Source: Paraglaciecola hydrolytica (GTDB lineage Bacteria; Pseudomonadota; Gammaproteobacteria; Enterobacterales; Alteromonadaceae). Taken from it: a stretch of 64,000 nucleotides of DNA. Positions 2,211 through 52,615 of the stretch are shown one piece after another. The stretch is from positions 189,025 to 253,024 of the forward strand of contig NZ_LSNE01000011.1 of NCBI RefSeq assembly GCF_001565895.1, in the 5' to 3' direction. Each line of letters begins with the position of its first letter. The stretch's first letter is position 1. The translations under genes and the position numbers were made by a program. The notes under the pieces were generated by a model. The model did no database searches. It was not told the origin of the DNA and was given only the letters and a program-made list of their open reading frames with translations.

Positions 2211-2546
2211 GCATGGCCTGCGGCCACGAAGCTTATCGCTACGCGACACAGCATGCGCGGTGCTTACTTTTAAAGCATCGCTTCGCGACCGCAATCCATT
2301 GCGTTTATGACATGTCATCCCTGACATGCCAGTTACTTTTTCCCAACAGCCGCAAAAAGTAACCCAAAAGGGCCGCTCTCCAATCAACTTACTATTCCAA
2401 TTTAAGCCCCAACTTGTTTTCAAACCGGTGCGGAGAGCACGTCCATATGCTCACCTCACCTTGTCCAGACATCCTGTCTGGTCATTTGACAAGTCGTGAC
2501 TCAAATCGGGTAAGTTGGAGTCGAGTGTAAAGCACTTTCTTCGATT
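2211..2546 (+). repeat. Left arm of inverted-repeat cassette 1
   Basis: This non-coding arm starts at the base after the mgsA stop codon. Its outer part is a string of very short palindromes (GGCCTGCGGCC, TCGCTACGCGA, TCGCTTCGCGA). Then come ACCGCAATCCATTGC, a hairpin CATGTCA-tccc-TGACATG (2311-2328), a hairpin with stem GTTACTTTTT/AAAAAGTAAC and loop containing CCAACAGC (2332-2363), GGGCCGCTCTCC, a nested hairpin CCAGAC-atcct-GTCTGG (2465-2481), GGGTAAGTTGGAGTCGAG and TTTCTTCGATT. The same order of blocks recurs at 12789-13181 and, inverted, at 3343-3645 and 13940-14297. Short open frames in it are by-products. Confidence 0.9.
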
Positions 2547-2618
2547 AAATTTCGTGTTGCTACATATAGCCTAATTCTGGTTAAATAAAAATTAAGGGCA
2601 CGAAAATTATAGGTTTTT

Positions 2619-3326
2619 ATGGAACGTACATTGGCAACGGTTGGTTCTGAGGTAAATACCCAAAAAATTCTAAGACGTTATTTAGATTTGCCAAAGCTTT
2701 TGGATATCTTACATTCGAAGTCTCTCTATTTTAGACGAGCAGATGGTTTTTCAGATCGTTTGGAAGGCGCGTTATTCCCATGTTTACGAAGGTCAATAGA
2801 TGAAGGGTGTAAAAATGGCGCAATAAAAACAAATTCGGACGAATTTTATAGAAGAGCGAGAGAAGAGAACTTTGTAAGCTGCTGGACTATCGGTGCCAAT
2901 GATAATATGGCTTTATGGCAGTTGTATGGTGGCATTAAGACTAGCGTCGCAATAACTACTACTGTTGAGAGAATTATTCATTGCGCATTAGATTGGAATG
3001 AACCTATTGATGTGCGTAAAGTAAAGTACATAAATCATAAAAAGCCTCCTAATTGTGGCATTGGGGCGCCTAGAGATGTATTGCAATTTAAGAGTGAAGC
3101 CTACAAATTCGAAAATGAACTTCGAGTCGTTGTGTCTCCACATAGGAATGTAAATCCATCAATGGGAATGCGTCTGCCATTGACAGATCTTAATAAATTA
3201 ATCAGAAGTGTTGTGCTTGCTCCAGAGGCAGAGTCTAATTTTGTTGAAGCCGTTTCGGATTTATGTGTGAAATATGGACTAAAGGCTCCAGTTCGAAAGT
3301 CGAAACTTTCTTTTGTGTCAGTATGA
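2619..3326 (+). CDS. DUF2971-like cargo protein of cassette 1
   Basis: This 235-residue soluble protein is the only gene between the two inverted arms of cassette 1. It has the layout I associate with DUF2971: an N-terminal ILRRYLDLPKLLDILHSKSL with LYFRRADGFSDRLEG, a central ENFVSCWTIGANDNMALWQL with YGG, then FKSEAYKFENELRVVV and a C-terminal VVLAPEA...YGL segment. The molecular function of this family is not known to me, and no signal peptide or membrane segment is visible. The gene looks more A+T-rich and codon-atypical than its neighbours, which fits acquisition as cargo. ATG 2619 lacks a strong ribosome site, so the start is reasonable but unproved. Confidence 0.75.
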   Translation: MERTLATVGSEVNTQKILRRYLDLPKLLDILHSKSLYFRRADGFSDRLEGALFPCLRRSIDEGCKNGAIKTNSDEFYRRAREENFVSCWTIGANDNMALWQLYGGIKTSVAITTTVERIIHCALDWNEPIDVRKVKYINHKKPPNCGIGAPRDVLQFKSEAYKFENELRVVVSPHRNVNPSMGMRLPLTDLNKLIRSVVLAPEAESNFVEAVSDLCVKYGLKAPVRKSKLSFVSV

Positions 3327-3342
3327 AATTTAATAAGGTATA

Positions 3343-3645
3343 AATTCGAAGAAATAGGTGTTCTTCTCGACTCATTGCTCCCTGAGCACCGCTGGTTTTA
3401 AAAGGTCAAAGTGCAGGGATGCACTTTGAGTGAGAATGATGTCGGGAACATCTGCTCACGGCCTTATAAAATCAAGACGCGCAGGGATTAGAGCAATGTT
3501 GGAGAGCGGCTTCTTTTGCCTACTTTTCTTAGCTGTTGAAGAAAAGTATGGTCGGACGGCAAGGACGCCGTTAGAAAAACGCAATGGATTGCGGTCGCGC
3601 AGCGATAAATAAGCAAAGCGCATGCCCCATCGCGTAGCGATGCTT
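3343..3645 (-). repeat. Right arm of inverted-repeat cassette 1
   Basis: Read on the minus strand, this arm repeats the block order of the left arm and ends one base before the stop codon of the convergent gene at 3646. Key blocks are TTCGAAGAA (3345-3353), hairpin CAAAGTGC/GCACTTTG (3407-3428), GAGAGCGGC, hairpin TACTTTTCT/AGAAAAGTA around GCTGTTG (3521-3548), hairpin ACGGC/GCCGT (3556-3571), CGCAATGGATTGCGGTCGCG (3580-3599) and TCGCGTAGCGA. It is far closer to the right arm of cassette 2 (13940-14297) than to its own left arm. A small open frame at 3430-3612 lies wholly inside the repeat and is not a gene. Confidence 0.88.
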
Positions 3646-4113
3646 TTAAGCTTCTGCTTTTAGCAGTGTTTGCCCGCAGCGTAAACGTCCAAACACCCAT
3701 CCCCCTATTGCGCCACATAAACATAAAGCCAATATCCCTGCATGAGAGCGGGCGCTGGCGATAAGCGTAATATTCATAATGGGTTGCATGGCGATTAACA
3801 TGAGTCCAACTGCACTGGCGCCAGCTAAGGGGTAAAGTAGCTTAAGTGGTGAATAAAGTGTGACTAGCCATTTTTTTAACAGCGTTAGGGCGAGCAAGCC
3901 TAAAAATAAACTCAAGCTAATAATGGGTCCAAGGGTAGGGAATAAACCCTGCAGATCTTGCCAGGTCATGCGTAGTCGATCAGACCAAGAAATCACGATG
4001 CCTAAGTCACTCAAGCCATGTAAGACAAACTGACTATGCACCATGCTGGCACAGATGAAGGTGAGCAGCGATGCCGCAAAAAAATGACCAACCAGAGTAA
4101 AAAAACGCTGCAT
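3646..4113 (-). CDS. Small integral membrane protein, unknown function
   Basis: This 155-residue protein has four predicted transmembrane segments, roughly at residues 8-28, 62-82, 90-112 and 125-145, and only short polar connections. I recognise no family motif or catalytic residue. It is convergent with mgsA, separated from it by cassette 1, and divergent from the sugar dehydrogenase at 4175. Its stop codon lies directly at the outer edge of the cassette's right arm. Membrane location is inferred from hydrophobicity. A role cannot be assigned. Confidence 0.65.
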   Translation of the reverse strand: MQRFFTLVGHFFAASLLTFICASMVHSQFVLHGLSDLGIVISWSDRLRMTWQDLQGLFPTLGPIISLSLFLGLLALTLLKKWLVTLYSPLKLLYPLAGASAVGLMLIAMQPIMNITLIASARSHAGILALCLCGAIGGWVFGRLRCGQTLLKAEA

Positions 4114-11621: not shown

Positions 11622-12788
11622 ATGTATCAAGCCAAGCACAGTATCAGTCTTTTATTTAATGCCAATAAGGTTTACGACCGCCAAGTTATTGAAGGTATTG
11701 GCCACTATTTACAATCCTCTAAAGTGGATTGGGATGTTTATCTGGAAGAAGATTTTCTCGCCCGTCTCGAACATATAGAAGAGTGGGGCGGCGATGGCAT
11801 TATTGCGGATTTTGATGATCCAGCCATTCAATCGGCCTTGTTAAATGCCAAGGTGCCGGTCATAGGCATTGGCGGCTCTTACTCTAATGATGAGGATTAT
11901 CCCGATGTGCCCTACGTTGCTACGGATAATTTTGAAGTGGTGAAAGCCGCTTACGAACATCTTAAGAAAAAGGGTTTAGAACGTTTTGCGTTTTACGGCT
12001 TTCCGGCAGATCAAAATCATCGTTGGGCGGTAGAGCGTGAACGTGCCATGGTCAAATTATGTAAAGCAGATGGTTACGATTGTTCGATTTACCGTGGCCA
12101 TCCAACTCGCCCCGAAACATGGCAATACACCATGAACCGCGTGACTGACTGGATCCAAGGTTTGCCTAATCCAGTGGGCATAGTTTCGGTAACCGATGCC
12201 CGTGCCCGCCATTTATTACAGGCCTGTGAGCATATAGGTAAACTGGTGCCCGACAGCATTTCCATCGTAGGTATTGATGACGATGATATCGCCCGTTATT
12301 TAAGTCGTATCAGTTTGAGCAGCGTGACCCAGGGCTGTTTTGATATGGGGTTCCAGGCCGCTAAATTGTTGCATCGTCATCTGGATAATCCTAATTTAAA
12401 AAATAAACGAGTATTGGTGCCGCCTGCAGGTGTATCAGAACGTCAGTCCACTGACTTTAAAGCCTTAAAAGATCCCTATGTTATCCAAGCCATGCACTAC
12501 ATACGGCAAAATGCCTGTCGGGGGATCAAGGTTGAGCAGGTATTAGATTATGTGGGCGTTTCCCGTTCAAACCTTGAACAGCGTTTTAGAGAAGAGCGTG
12601 GACACAGTATTCATACTGAAATTCATAATGAAAAACTGGCTAAGGCTTGCAAACTGTTAGCCGAAGAAAGCATGTCAACCAACGATGTCGCCCAAGTTTG
12701 TGGCTATCCATCCTTGCAATACATGTATGCCGTGTTTAAAAAGCATTATGACAAAACTCCCCGTGAGTTTAGGGATGGAGCGAAGTAG
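11622..12788 (+). CDS. xylR: Xylose operon regulator, AraC type
   Basis: This XylR homologue has a periplasmic-binding-protein-like sugar sensor (residues about 5-275) joined to a C-terminal AraC HTH domain (about 285-385). Sensor landmarks are SLLFNANKVYDRQVIEGI, DGIIADFDD, VPVIGIGGSY, SVTDARARHLL and GIDDDD. The HTH domain ends with SLQYMYAVFKKHYDKTPREFR. By analogy with E. coli it would activate xylBA when xylose is bound. I prefer ATG 11622, which has TGGAG at correct spacing, over the GTG at 11616. The stop codon is followed at once by the left arm of cassette 2. Confidence 0.92.
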   Translation: MYQAKHSISLLFNANKVYDRQVIEGIGHYLQSSKVDWDVYLEEDFLARLEHIEEWGGDGIIADFDDPAIQSALLNAKVPVIGIGGSYSNDEDYPDVPYVATDNFEVVKAAYEHLKKKGLERFAFYGFPADQNHRWAVERERAMVKLCKADGYDCSIYRGHPTRPETWQYTMNRVTDWIQGLPNPVGIVSVTDARARHLLQACEHIGKLVPDSISIVGIDDDDIARYLSRISLSSVTQGCFDMGFQAAKLLHRHLDNPNLKNKRVLVPPAGVSERQSTDFKALKDPYVIQAMHYIRQNACRGIKVEQVLDYVGVSRSNLEQRFREERGHSIHTEIHNEKLAKACKLLAEESMSTNDVAQVCGYPSLQYMYAVFKKHYDKTPREFRDGAK

Positions 12789-13181
12789 GCTTCTTGTCGC
12801 TACGCGACGGGCATGCGCTTCGCTTACTTTATGGCCTTCGGCCACTAAGATTATGCGCAACGCGCACTTATCGCTTCGCGACTAGGCATGCACTTCGTGC
12901 ACGGAGCATGCGCTGCGCTTACCGCAATCCATTGCTTTCTTCAAGCCGCGTCCCTGCGGCTTGAGTTACTTTTTCCCAACAGCCGCAAAAAGTAACCAAA
13001 AAGGGCCGCTCTCCGACCAACTTACTGATCCAATTTCAACCGTACCTTGTTGATCAAACCGGCGTGAGCGCACATCCTTGTGCACTACACGCCTTGACCT
13101 CACGTCCTGTGAGGTCATTTGACAAGGCACAATTGAAATCGGGTAAGTTGGAGTCGAGATAAAATGCCACTTTCTTCGATT
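12789..13181 (+). repeat. Left arm of inverted-repeat cassette 2
   Basis: The arm begins at the base after the xylR stop. Its outer 130 bp is an array of tiny palindromes, many with TTCG-type loops: GTCGCTACGCGAC, GGCCTTCGGCC, GCGCAACGCGC, TCGCTTCGCGA, GCACTTCGTGC. Then follow ACCGCAATCCATTGC (12921-12935), hairpin AAGCCGC/GCGGCTT with loop gtccct (12943-12962), hairpin GTTACTTTTT/AAAAAGTAAC (12964-12995), GGGCCGCTCTCC, hairpin GACCTCAC/GTGAGGTC with loop gtcct (13096-13116), GGGTAAGTTGGAGTCGAG and TTTCTTCGATT. Block order is identical to 2211-2546, but several stems differ in sequence with both sides changed together. Confidence 0.9.
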
Positions 13182-13290
13182 TATTTCCGCTTTTCTGGAT
13201 TTAACCCGATTCAGGTTAAATACAAATTATGGATCGAAATATTGCCTCTTTCATTTGAATAAGAGTATGAAATATTAAGAAAAATTTAAT

Positions 13291-13339
13291 ATTAGTCGGA
13301 ATAATGTTAAATCCGGAGCTAACATGAATTCCGACTAAT
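13291..13339. promoter_or_regulatory. Long perfect stem-loop upstream of cargo gene 2
   Basis: ATTAGTCGGAAT (13291-13302) and ATTCCGACTAAT (13328-13339) are exact 12-bp inverted copies. Inside them ATGTTA (13304-13309) and TAACAT (13320-13325) extend the stem to 18 bp with a small bulge and a 10-base loop. It lies inside the cassette, between the left arm and the cargo gene, and is absent from cassette 1. It could be an operator, a transcript structure or part of the recombination site. There is no T-run, so a simple terminator is unlikely. Confidence 0.6.
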
Positions 13340-13362
13340 TAACTTTATGCGCAACATAATAT

Positions 13363-13390
13363 TTGACATATTTGGTAACATGGTTACAGT
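13363..13390 (+). promoter_or_regulatory. Predicted promoter with internal palindrome, cargo gene 2
   Basis: TTGACA (13363-13368) is followed after 16 bp by TACAGT (13385-13390), a good sigma-70-like pair ending 31 bp before ATG 13422. The spacer holds the palindrome GTAAC-ATG-GTTAC (13375-13387). This is a plausible autoregulatory site for the ribbon-helix-helix-like product, though that link is inference. Confidence 0.5.
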
Positions 13391-13421
13391 GTGCCTTCGT
13401 CTAGATGTTGCAGAGGCAGTT

Positions 13422-13829
13422 ATGAGTCAAGTAATCCGAATTACCGAAAAACTGTATAATCGTCTTAAAAGTCACGCTGAAGGCTTTGATACTCCAGCCA
13501 GTGTGATCGAGAAAATCGTCAATGCATATGAAGCAAACGGCTTTAAGCCCACTACAACTATGCAAGAGATAGTTGCTTCAACAAAATTAGAGATAGAATT
13601 TGATGGCATGACAGAAGTGGTTTTTAAAAAGGCACTAATCAAAAACAAATCGGCTTATATAACCTTGTTCTTTACAGACGGCACAAGCAAATCTAAATTC
13701 TGGAAGGCATCAAAATTTTCTGAGGACTCCAATTTAGGAGCAAACTTAAGGTCTGGTTTTTTACGTGGCTGGCGATCCAAAGGCATTTATAAAGCAGTGC
13801 TATCTTTTAATGATCCAGAAAGCGCATAA
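13422..13829 (+). CDS. Cargo protein of cassette 2, ribbon-helix-helix-like N-terminus
   Basis: This 135-residue protein is the only gene of cassette 2. Residues 1-45 (SQVIRITEKLYNRLKSHA, FDTPASVIEKIVNAYE) look like a beta-strand plus two helices of the ribbon-helix-helix DNA-binding type. Residues 55-135 form a separate domain with AYITLFFTDGTSKSKFWKAS, then NLRSGFLRGWRSKG, which I cannot name. ATG 13422 has CAGAGG upstream and a promoter ends just before it. The longer frame from 13347 would begin inside that promoter, so I reject it. The gene looks A+T-rich and unlike its neighbours. It could be a regulator or an orphan antitoxin; no partner toxin is present. Confidence 0.6.
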   Translation: MSQVIRITEKLYNRLKSHAEGFDTPASVIEKIVNAYEANGFKPTTTMQEIVASTKLEIEFDGMTEVVFKKALIKNKSAYITLFFTDGTSKSKFWKASKFSEDSNLGANLRSGFLRGWRSKGIYKAVLSFNDPESA

Positions 13830-13939
13830 CAAACTGTTTAATCTTAGGACACATCCTGCTACGCACCTTTTTGTGCATGGCCTTCGGGCATCTTTGCACA
13901 AAAACTTGCTCCACAGACTGCGCCTATTATCAAGACGTT

Positions 13940-14335
13940 AATTCGAAGAATCGTTTGTTCCCTCGACTCCAACTTCCCCGATTTCAGTTGTGCCTTGTCA
14001 AATGTCCAAACAGGACGTTTGGACAAGGCGTGGTGAGTACAGGGAGGTAATCTCCACGTCGGTTTGATCAACAAGGTGCAAGTGAAATTGGAATAGGAAG
14101 TTGGTCGGAGAGCGGCTTCTTTTGCCTACTTTTCTTAGCTGTTGGAGAAAAGTATGGTCGGGCGGCAGGGACGCCGTTAGAAAAACGCAATGGATTGCGG
14201 TCGCGAAGCGATAAGTGCGCGCAGCGCATAATCTTAGTAGTGCAGTTATGCTTTTAAAAGCGCACGTAGTGCATGCTCTGTCGCGCAGCGACAACCCTTC
14301 GCTGCTCGCTGCTCGAAACTCGCCGCTAATTCTAT
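13940..14335 (-). repeat. Right arm of inverted-repeat cassette 2
   Basis: Inverted with respect to 12789-13181. From the inside outwards: TTCGAAGAA (13942-13950), CTCGACTCC, hairpin TGTCCAAAC/GTTTGGACA (14003-14025) nested in GCCTTGTC/GACAAGGC, TTGATCAACAAGGTG, GAGAGCGGC, hairpin TACTTTTCT/AGAAAAGTA around GCTGTTGG (14127-14154), hairpin CGGC/GCCG with loop agggac (14163-14176), GCAATGGATTGCGGTCGCGA, then short palindromes ending with TCGCGCAGCGA near 14290. The last 40 bp before the DUF4426 stop codon are a run of GCTGCTCG-like words, so the exact outer edge is uncertain. The 13830-13939 stretch between cargo gene and arm holds further small hairpins. Confidence 0.88.
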
Positions 14336-14797
14336 CTACTCAACATAAAACTTATGTTCAAACTTCAACTTTTGTTGGCTTTTGCCGTCGTTAATATCCA
14401 CATTGATGCGATAGTGTTCTTGATCGCTAAAGGGCAATACTGCCAAGTAATAAATGGCTTCGCCTTCTTTGACTTGTTTAAAACTGAGCTTTTTAGTCAC
14501 GCCTAATAAGTTTCTGGCTTCGCCGCTTAGGATTACGTTTTGTGCTGCTTGGCTTTTTTTATCCAGTACCGAGATATTAATCAAAGCGTTGTATTTGCTG
14601 CGCACTATACCGTTGTTTTTGGCAATTTCAGGCGTTAAAAAGGTGGTGTTGAAGGCGATGTAATGTACATCCCAAGTACCTAGTGCGACTTTTTGTTCAG
14701 CGTTGGCCTTGCTTGCAAAAGCAAACAAGGTTAGCGCAGCAAAAATGACACTCAGTGTTTTAGAGCAAGAAAAGCTAGAAAATACCAAACAAATCAC
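14336..14797 (-). CDS. DUF4426 periplasmic protein
   Basis: This 153-residue protein has an N-terminal signal peptide (TLSVIFAALTLFAFASKANA) and a single beta-rich domain beginning LGTWDVHYIAFNTTFLTPEIA. That is the pattern I know as DUF4426, usually found next to yggT in marine gammaproteobacteria. Its biochemical role is unknown. The ATG at 14797 overlaps the end of yggT by 23 bp, which suggests translational coupling in a proC-yggT-DUF4426 transcript. It is convergent with xylR across cassette 2. Confidence 0.8.
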   Translation of the reverse strand: MICLVFSSFSCSKTLSVIFAALTLFAFASKANAEQKVALGTWDVHYIAFNTTFLTPEIAKNNGIVRSKYNALINISVLDKKSQAAQNVILSGEARNLLGVTKKLSFKQVKEGEAIYYLAVLPFSDQEHYRINVDINDGKSQQKLKFEHKFYVE

Positions 14798-52482: not shown

Positions 52483-52513
52483 AAAAACCCCCGGAAGTTG
52501 CCTTCCGAGGGTT
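52483..52513 (-). terminator. his operon attenuator terminator
   Basis: On the minus strand CCCTCGGAAG and CTTCCGGGGG pair around GCAA and are followed by TTTTT. It lies between the leader peptide and hisG. Upstream stems CTGGAAGG/CCTTCCAG (52532-52558) can form alternative pairings, as expected of an attenuator. Confidence 0.88.
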
Positions 52514-52573
52514 GAGAAAATTTTCTGCGCCACTGGAAGGATTCAATAAACCTTCCAGCCTAGACCTGAAAGG

Positions 52574-52615
52574 TTAAGCTTTGTGGTGATGGACGACTTG
52601 CAGTGAATTTTTCAA
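52574..52615 (-). CDS. hisL: his leader peptide
   Basis: This 13-residue frame reads (TTG)KNSLQVVHHHKA and stop, with three consecutive histidine codons right before the attenuator stems. Ribosome stalling at these codons when histidyl-tRNA is scarce would favour the anti-terminator. The start is a TTG (an ATT two codons earlier would be rarer), with AGGA upstream. Only three His codons in a row is fewer than the seven of E. coli. Confidence 0.75.
   Translation of the reverse strand: MKNSLQVVHHHKA

Follow-up and report, generated by a model that had tools for sequence, protein, structure and literature searches.

Cassette 2 of the analysed DNA and its relatives are, in the reading that we consider likely, integron platforms without an integrase of their own: each would offer one attI-like slot between two outward-facing arms, and the slot would be loaded in trans. 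The DNA is a stretch of 64,000 nucleotides from Paraglaciecola hydrolytica (the window, whose numbering we use throughout; L numbers denote other loci and G numbers genomes). The arms, their motif and orientation, the attI-like leader, the cassette boundaries and the attC-like site of cassette 2 can be read from the sequence. An earlier note on the window had described two foldback-like cassettes with polar ends and swapped cargo. Our analysis bore out a cassette system with swapped cargo. The foldback-like, polar ends were not upheld: the arms are copies of TwoAYGGAY without left/right polarity, and the exchangeable part of cassette 2 resembles an integron cassette in an attI-like site.

Anatomy of the two cassettes

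Inverted arms of ~300-400 bp bracket unrelated single genes at both loci (profile bounds: 2228-2600 and 3293-3677 in cassette 1, 12779-13234 and 13888-14314 in cassette 2), confirming the repeated arms that had been noticed there. The 3' ends of two convergent genes flank cassette 2, which, judged by its sequence, is ordered as left arm, attI-like leader, gene cassette with a 3' attC-like palindrome, and right arm. Its left arm (12779-13181, plus strand, outer to inner) has an outer part of short palindromes, starting from the stop codon of a 390-aa gene that ends at 12788, followed by a TwoAYGGAY (RF01731) match on the minus strand that points outward (13000-13169; 55.6 bits, gathering score 43, E 1.9e-6). 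At 12789-12920 and at the outer ends of other arms we observed runs of ~20-bp mini-palindromes with varying stems and a TNC loop; in several arms these runs start at the stop codon of the adjacent gene.

The start of the attI-like leader (13152-13344, plus strand) overlaps the left arm; the leader is common to other arm-bracketed units and ends in the attI-like core CCGACTAATTAACT at 13331-13344. Several other units and integrase-adjacent attI sites end in ..CTG|TTA; cassette 2 has T, not G, before the cassette. The integron-type gene cassette (13345-13937, plus strand) consists of the start TTATGCGC, an ORF and the attC-like site. The cassette start TTATGCGC at 13345 is the reverse complement, over 8 nt, of the attC start GCGCATAA at 13822, so that cassette 2 carries the complementary start of an integron cassette. 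The cargo ORF (13422-13829, plus strand) encodes 135 aa, or 160 aa from an alternative start at 13347. It partially matches NF047386 (E 7.2e-8), and its score of 32 bits, against a cut-off of 110, means that it is not a member of that family by this cut-off. The attC-like imperfect palindrome (13822-13940, plus strand; GCGCATAACAAACTG..AAGACG|TTA) folds better as single-stranded DNA than its shuffles (z -2.9 for the top strand, -2.3 for the bottom strand). It is joined by the right arm (13938-14314, minus strand), whose inner edge is TTAATTCGAAGAA, whose TwoAYGGAY match lies on the plus strand and again points outward (13954-14117; 54.7 bits, E 3.1e-6), and whose outer end adjoins the 3' end of a 153-aa gene (14336-14797).

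Cassette 1 displays just part of this integron-like anatomy. Its left arm (2228-2546, plus strand) carries TwoAYGGAY at 2381-2525 on the minus strand, and a leader remnant follows (2530-2609, plus strand; E 1.7e-8) that comprises the first part of the leader, without the attI core. The cargo (2619-3326, plus strand; 235 aa) matches PADLOC PDC-S31 (E 3.1e-15) and, below the cut-off, Pfam DUF2971 (E 0.032). No attC was seen between the ORF and the right arm (3341-3677, minus strand), the outer half of which is 92% identical to that of cassette 2 and the inner half of which belongs to another subtype. Cassette 1 may thus be a decayed unit or one of another type.

Distribution and orientation of the arms

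In an Rfam scan, the cores of three of the four window arms reached at least the gathering score of TwoAYGGAY; the right arm of cassette 1 stayed under the RF01731 cut-off. The scan also returned a histidine operon leader (RF00514) at 52483-52596. Because their core is this Rfam family, the arms recur genome-wide: the genome-wide look proposed in the earlier note gave 60 places matching the left arm of cassette 2 and 47 matching its right arm in the 5.2-Mb P. hydrolytica genome. Arm cores examined at other loci mostly match TwoAYGGAY, many of them over the gathering score. An alignment of 17 TwoAYGGAY copies has compensatory changes at 17 of 44 predicted pairs. DNA similarity to the arms was detected in 13/13 genomes of the same genus versus 0/8 of other genera (21 genomes), and the plasmids that were searched yielded nothing. 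At the level of the order, 66 of 295 genomes have RF01731 matches over the cut-off; within the genus, 9 of 22 do.

Left arms carry TwoAYGGAY on the minus strand and right arms on the plus strand, so that the motif points out of the cassette on either side, and this outward orientation is a general rule. At 40 loci of the genus (distance below 6 kb, at least 40 bits) neighbouring arms formed 19 outward, 0 inward and 18 tandem pairs; at 20 loci from other genera, picked from the best matches and counted within the fetched locus, the numbers were 12, 0 and 22 (13 + 9). Ten further loci of the genus contributed one inward pair, at L320, where two units stand side by side. L255 and L258 have only tandem arms within the stretch examined. 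At L254 (6446-7745), from another genus of the same family, three tandem TwoAYGGAY copies lie ~576 bp apart with two genes around them and no cargo. In L059 an arm is split near model position 170 by an IS110-type transposase gene (L059 5661-6635), and at L052 6661-7650 there is a Y1/REP-associated-type transposase of ~330 aa that is multi-copy across the genus (75 matches in G001).

Comparison between species supported the earlier claim of a cassette system with constant ends and swapped single-gene contents, which recurs in other species. Downstream of mgsA, 3 of 20 genomes have arms and the other 17 have none within the 1.5 kb examined; in G024 the same kind of arm surrounds a different gene of 137 aa. 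Arms are present in 1 of 22 genomes behind the DUF4426-type gene to the right of cassette 2 (mgsA, xylR, gcvP and DUF4426 are presumed gene names). To the right of L052 lies a 1233-aa gene that has an arm in P. hydrolytica and in none of 15 other genomes; its orthologues (identity at least 84%) were found in 17 other genomes, of which 16 stretches were fetched and 15 were long enough, G027 ending at a contig edge. This patchy presence indicates that units come and go. Flanking gene order was too variable to define an exact empty site, and no precise one was found in the species comparison. A lone arm lies right behind the same 969-aa gene in G006, G007 and G008 (L323, L324, L325), so some arms are kept vertically. 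Vertical inheritance together with neighbouring genes, which had been named as grounds for abandoning the cassette idea, therefore holds for some lone arms. We discarded the idea of a hot spot at the 1233-aa gene, since no arm lies behind its orthologues and the large genes beside the L076, L078 and L080 arrays are not its orthologues by position. DUF3800, presumably linked to TwoAYGGAY through an Rfam clan, was likewise dropped as a partner of the arms; it is present in 5 of 22 genomes of the genus and absent from P. hydrolytica.

Leader, attC-like sites, integrases and cargo

A leader of ~190 bp is shared 5' of the cargo by cassette 2, L047, L048, L059 and L237 (G024). On the 3' side of the cargo lies an imperfect palindrome, whose clear forms start with TAACAA and end with GCGTTA and which is joined to the TTAATTCGAAGAA of the right arm. 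Leader, cargo and palindrome are arranged as attI, cassette and attC are in an integron. The right junction TTAATTCGAAGAA is found in five units (cassette 2, L047, L054, L059 and L237) and is preceded by an attC-type end in four; a similar end is also present in L045.

In integrons, the start of a cassette is complementary to that of its own attC. Complementarity of at least 8 nt was found at 8 of 12 arm-associated sites, versus 0.6 expected from random positions, and complementarity of 9 nt at 6 of 12, versus 0.2 expected; the count leaves out L047 and L270, and would be 8 of 13 with L047. L237, L054, L155 and L246 are without 8-nt complementarity, and the match of L048, which lies inside its ORF, is probably due to chance. 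All ten cassettes tested from the integron array of P. hydrolytica itself were complementary over 7 nt (no shuffle control). At L320 (4244-5618; G003) an arm pair shows a cassette-like 8-nt complementarity of start and end and a weaker attI core.

Two other attC-like sites, in L059 (z -1.3) and L047 (z +0.6), show no clear folding advantage over their shuffles. A loose attC screen returned 28 matches, versus 25 in shuffles, and strict attC forms alone were therefore counted. No attC was visible in L250 and L239, which come from other genera of another family and have single-gene cargo. An exact-pattern scan of genome contigs, from which close genomes were possibly absent, gave 0 matches to the right junction; the attI core had one match in an unrelated genome and one in a viral contig, both taken as chance. 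A promoter-only reading of the attI core was rejected, as it leaves the complementarity and the attC unexplained. We also rejected an intrastrand triplex for TACTTTTT..AAAAAGTA, since PMC4666352 describes a main motif that is G/C-rich.

By sequence, the leader is related to attI sites that adjoin integrases. A leader profile trained on five units also matched the DNA in front of a genuine integrase gene in G028 (L270, E 3.7e-5). Conversely, an independent profile was built from 10 integrase-adjacent attI sites, most of them from a different family (nine of f11 and one of f6), representing 10 of 20 integrase loci (eight loci had no core and were left out, as were L307 and L309, whose cores were different or weaker). 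Searched against 803 kb of arm loci, it matched L245 (1.5e-13), L255 (4.7e-7) and L247 (1.1e-6), each time immediately before a cargo gene. The sites of L245 and L247 lie inside outward arm pairs and that of L255 beside tandem arms. Eight of the 11 cargo-bearing arm pairs counted in P. hydrolytica have a leader match, four of these being training units and two partial (cassette 1 and L046). A further, short match lies in L064, whose left arm is weak. L049, L055 and the IS-bearing L052 gave no match to the leader profile.

The arm units have no integrase gene adjoining their attI-like site, and a search of 63 arm loci with seven integrase queries (E 1e-3) found no integrase remnant. Elsewhere in the P. 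hydrolytica genome lie two integron integrases that pass the curated cut-off, one of which adjoins a cassette array with the same attC type. Integrases over the cut-off are present in 18 of 22 genomes of the genus and in 17 of 20 genomes of other genera that have TwoAYGGAY, a proportion without a baseline because these 20 were chosen for their TwoAYGGAY matches. In three other genomes an arm lies directly behind intI (G003, L283; G146, L299/L315; G131, L317, a 59-nt remnant), placed and oriented as the 5' arm is in an orphan unit. The orphan unit thus resembles the series arm-(no intI)-attI-cassette-arm. Such arms behind intI are rare, since an Rfam scan of 39 integrase loci found TwoAYGGAY near one, and intI and TwoAYGGAY are not strictly linked, since G002 and G009 (2 of the 9 genomes of the genus with RF01731 over the cut-off) have no integrase over the cut-off.

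Matches to the defence library recur between arms. PDC-S31 matches lie between the arms of cassette 1, L048, L083 and L250; DUF2971/PDC-S31-type genes are a recurrent cargo, in two families. PDC-S05 is matched in the first cassette of L059 and PDC-S49 in L239; L076 has matches to Septu PtuA and PtuB, and L078 one to an OLD/AriA-like ATPase. Toxin-antitoxin genes are present in L080 and L319. Nine of 21 distinct proteins matched the defence library at E ≤ 1e-3, many of them having been preselected as defence-like; in a less selected set of cargos the proportion was 1 of 10. Many cargos, that of cassette 2 among them, belong to no clear family.

Interpretation of the units

Inverted arms around unrelated single genes, as the earlier note had observed, are real, and the left/right polarity that it ascribed to them is absent. 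When 17 of 28 aligned arms were classed by the side of the cargo on which they lie, mean identity was 0.570 for 5'-5' pairs (n=36), 0.599 for 3'-3' pairs (n=28), 0.575 for 5'-3' pairs between elements (n=64) and 0.533 for 5'-3' pairs within an element (n=8). The window arms gave 0.75 for the two left arms, 0.61 for the two right arms (92% over their outer 126 nt) and 0.76 for the left and right arms of cassette 2. The sides differ inside the arms, with the attI-like leader 5' and TTAATTCGAAGAA 3' of the cargo, each in some units. Polarity resides between the arms and not in them.

These values bear on a foldback- or MITE-like transposon, in which the arms would be terminal inverted repeats that move with their cargo by means of a transposase in trans. 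Inverted arms, exchanged cargo, many copies and species-wise presence or absence would all suit such an element, as would the Y1-type transposase gene between the arms of L052. However, near-identical ends within an element, as in a TIR transposon, were not found, the arms of one element being no more alike than arms of different elements. The cassette boundaries track attI and attC rather than the arms, no target duplication was seen by eye at cassette 2, the sole element compared, and the exact outer ends cannot be fixed. The Y1 gene was rejected as the engine of the arms, as it belongs to a genus-wide, multi-copy IS; of the 30 loci examined, one has an arm on either side and two more have partial arms. 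We regard a transposon of this kind as quite unlikely. The position of the arms suggests another explanation, in which they are independent 3'-end repeats (REP-like or terminator-like) and cassettes enter adjacent secondary sites of the attG type: in P. hydrolytica, 33 of 42 outer arm ends face the 3' end of a gene at a median distance of 18 bp, lone and cargo-less arms occur, and insertion of cassettes at attG is on record (PMC12901181). We think this explanation unlikely, given that the units have a ~190-bp leader related to true attI rather than a bare secondary site, that attI-like sites lie between outward arms in several units and that arms lie behind intI in three genomes.

The arms may also function at the RNA level, perhaps as sponges that bind CsrA/RsmA or as 3' UTR elements of the cargo. 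Among 77 hairpins, G-T pairs on the AYGGAY strand outnumber A-C mismatches by 24 to 5 (p 5e-4), an excess from which one strand probably works single-stranded; to judge by this bias, the AYGGAY strand, as RNA or single-stranded DNA, is probably the functional one. Seven of the eight window hairpins (stem of at least 5, ANGGAN loop) fall in arms, and it is this clustering that counts, the total of eight being slightly above the 1 to 7 of 20 mononucleotide shuffles. A 2010 screen has TwoAYGGAY only in a row of a table, without a function (PMC2864571); a CsrA-binding role is proposed for it in PMC4333381. Against a role as RNA, an arm downstream of the cargo can be wrongly oriented for its mRNA in tandem arrays (L078, L080), and the inverted pairs and the attI are left unexplained. 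As the explanation of the units, such a role appears doubtful to us, though it is compatible with the one that we prefer. Arms as the ends of a dispersible unit are our first choice, ahead of regulatory RNA.

In the integron platform that we propose for cassette 2, two outward TwoAYGGAY arms between convergent genes bracket an attI-like site that would hold a single integron-type cassette (ORF plus attC). An IntI encoded elsewhere in the genome would probably insert and exchange cassettes in trans, and the arms would probably mark the ends of the units, which are scattered over the P. hydrolytica genome and others. Loading in trans, mobility of the units and the role of the arms are what we infer from these features. 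A more far-reaching version, a distributed integron in which TwoAYGGAY arms delimit a mobile or dispersible platform, most copies of which lack an integrase, and one integrase serves many small attI slots across the chromosome, a good share of them stocked with single-gene phage defences, is a possibility that we raise tentatively.

The usual picture of an integron is a single platform adjoining its integrase. The units share with integrons the attI-like leader, the cassette start complementary to the attC start, the attC-like palindrome and the single-gene cargo. They differ in that the unit here is without an integrase, the platforms are scattered and TwoAYGGAY arms lie around them. MITE-flanked integron mobilization units likewise carry a short repeat at either end of a piece of integron, whereas the arms here are copies of a structured RNA motif at many chromosomal sites in several genera. 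According to PMC9024848, CALINs are attC clusters without an integron integrase, a single attC is under the quoted default threshold, and attI sites other than those of class 1 are poorly described and go undetected by IntegronFinder. Like CALINs, the units hold cassettes without a neighbouring integrase, but there is often one cassette, plus an attI-like site and arms; cassette 2, with one attC-like site, lacks the at least two attC of a CALIN. Cassettes inserted at attG (Loot et al. 2024, as cited in PMC12901181) also lie outside the main integron, but the site here resembles attI over ~100-190 bp.

Our literature search found no paper joining TwoAYGGAY with integrons. If the distributed integron is real, TwoAYGGAY would be an integron-associated element, which would give this orphan RNA family its first functional context. 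Our reading provides TwoAYGGAY with a concrete, testable setting. Scattered orphan attI slots would let cassettes be held and expressed at many sites per cell, and would escape tools that do not search for attI. The arm-bracketed slots would also be a place to seek single-gene defences, as PDC-S31, PDC-S05, PDC-S49 and Septu matches lie there.
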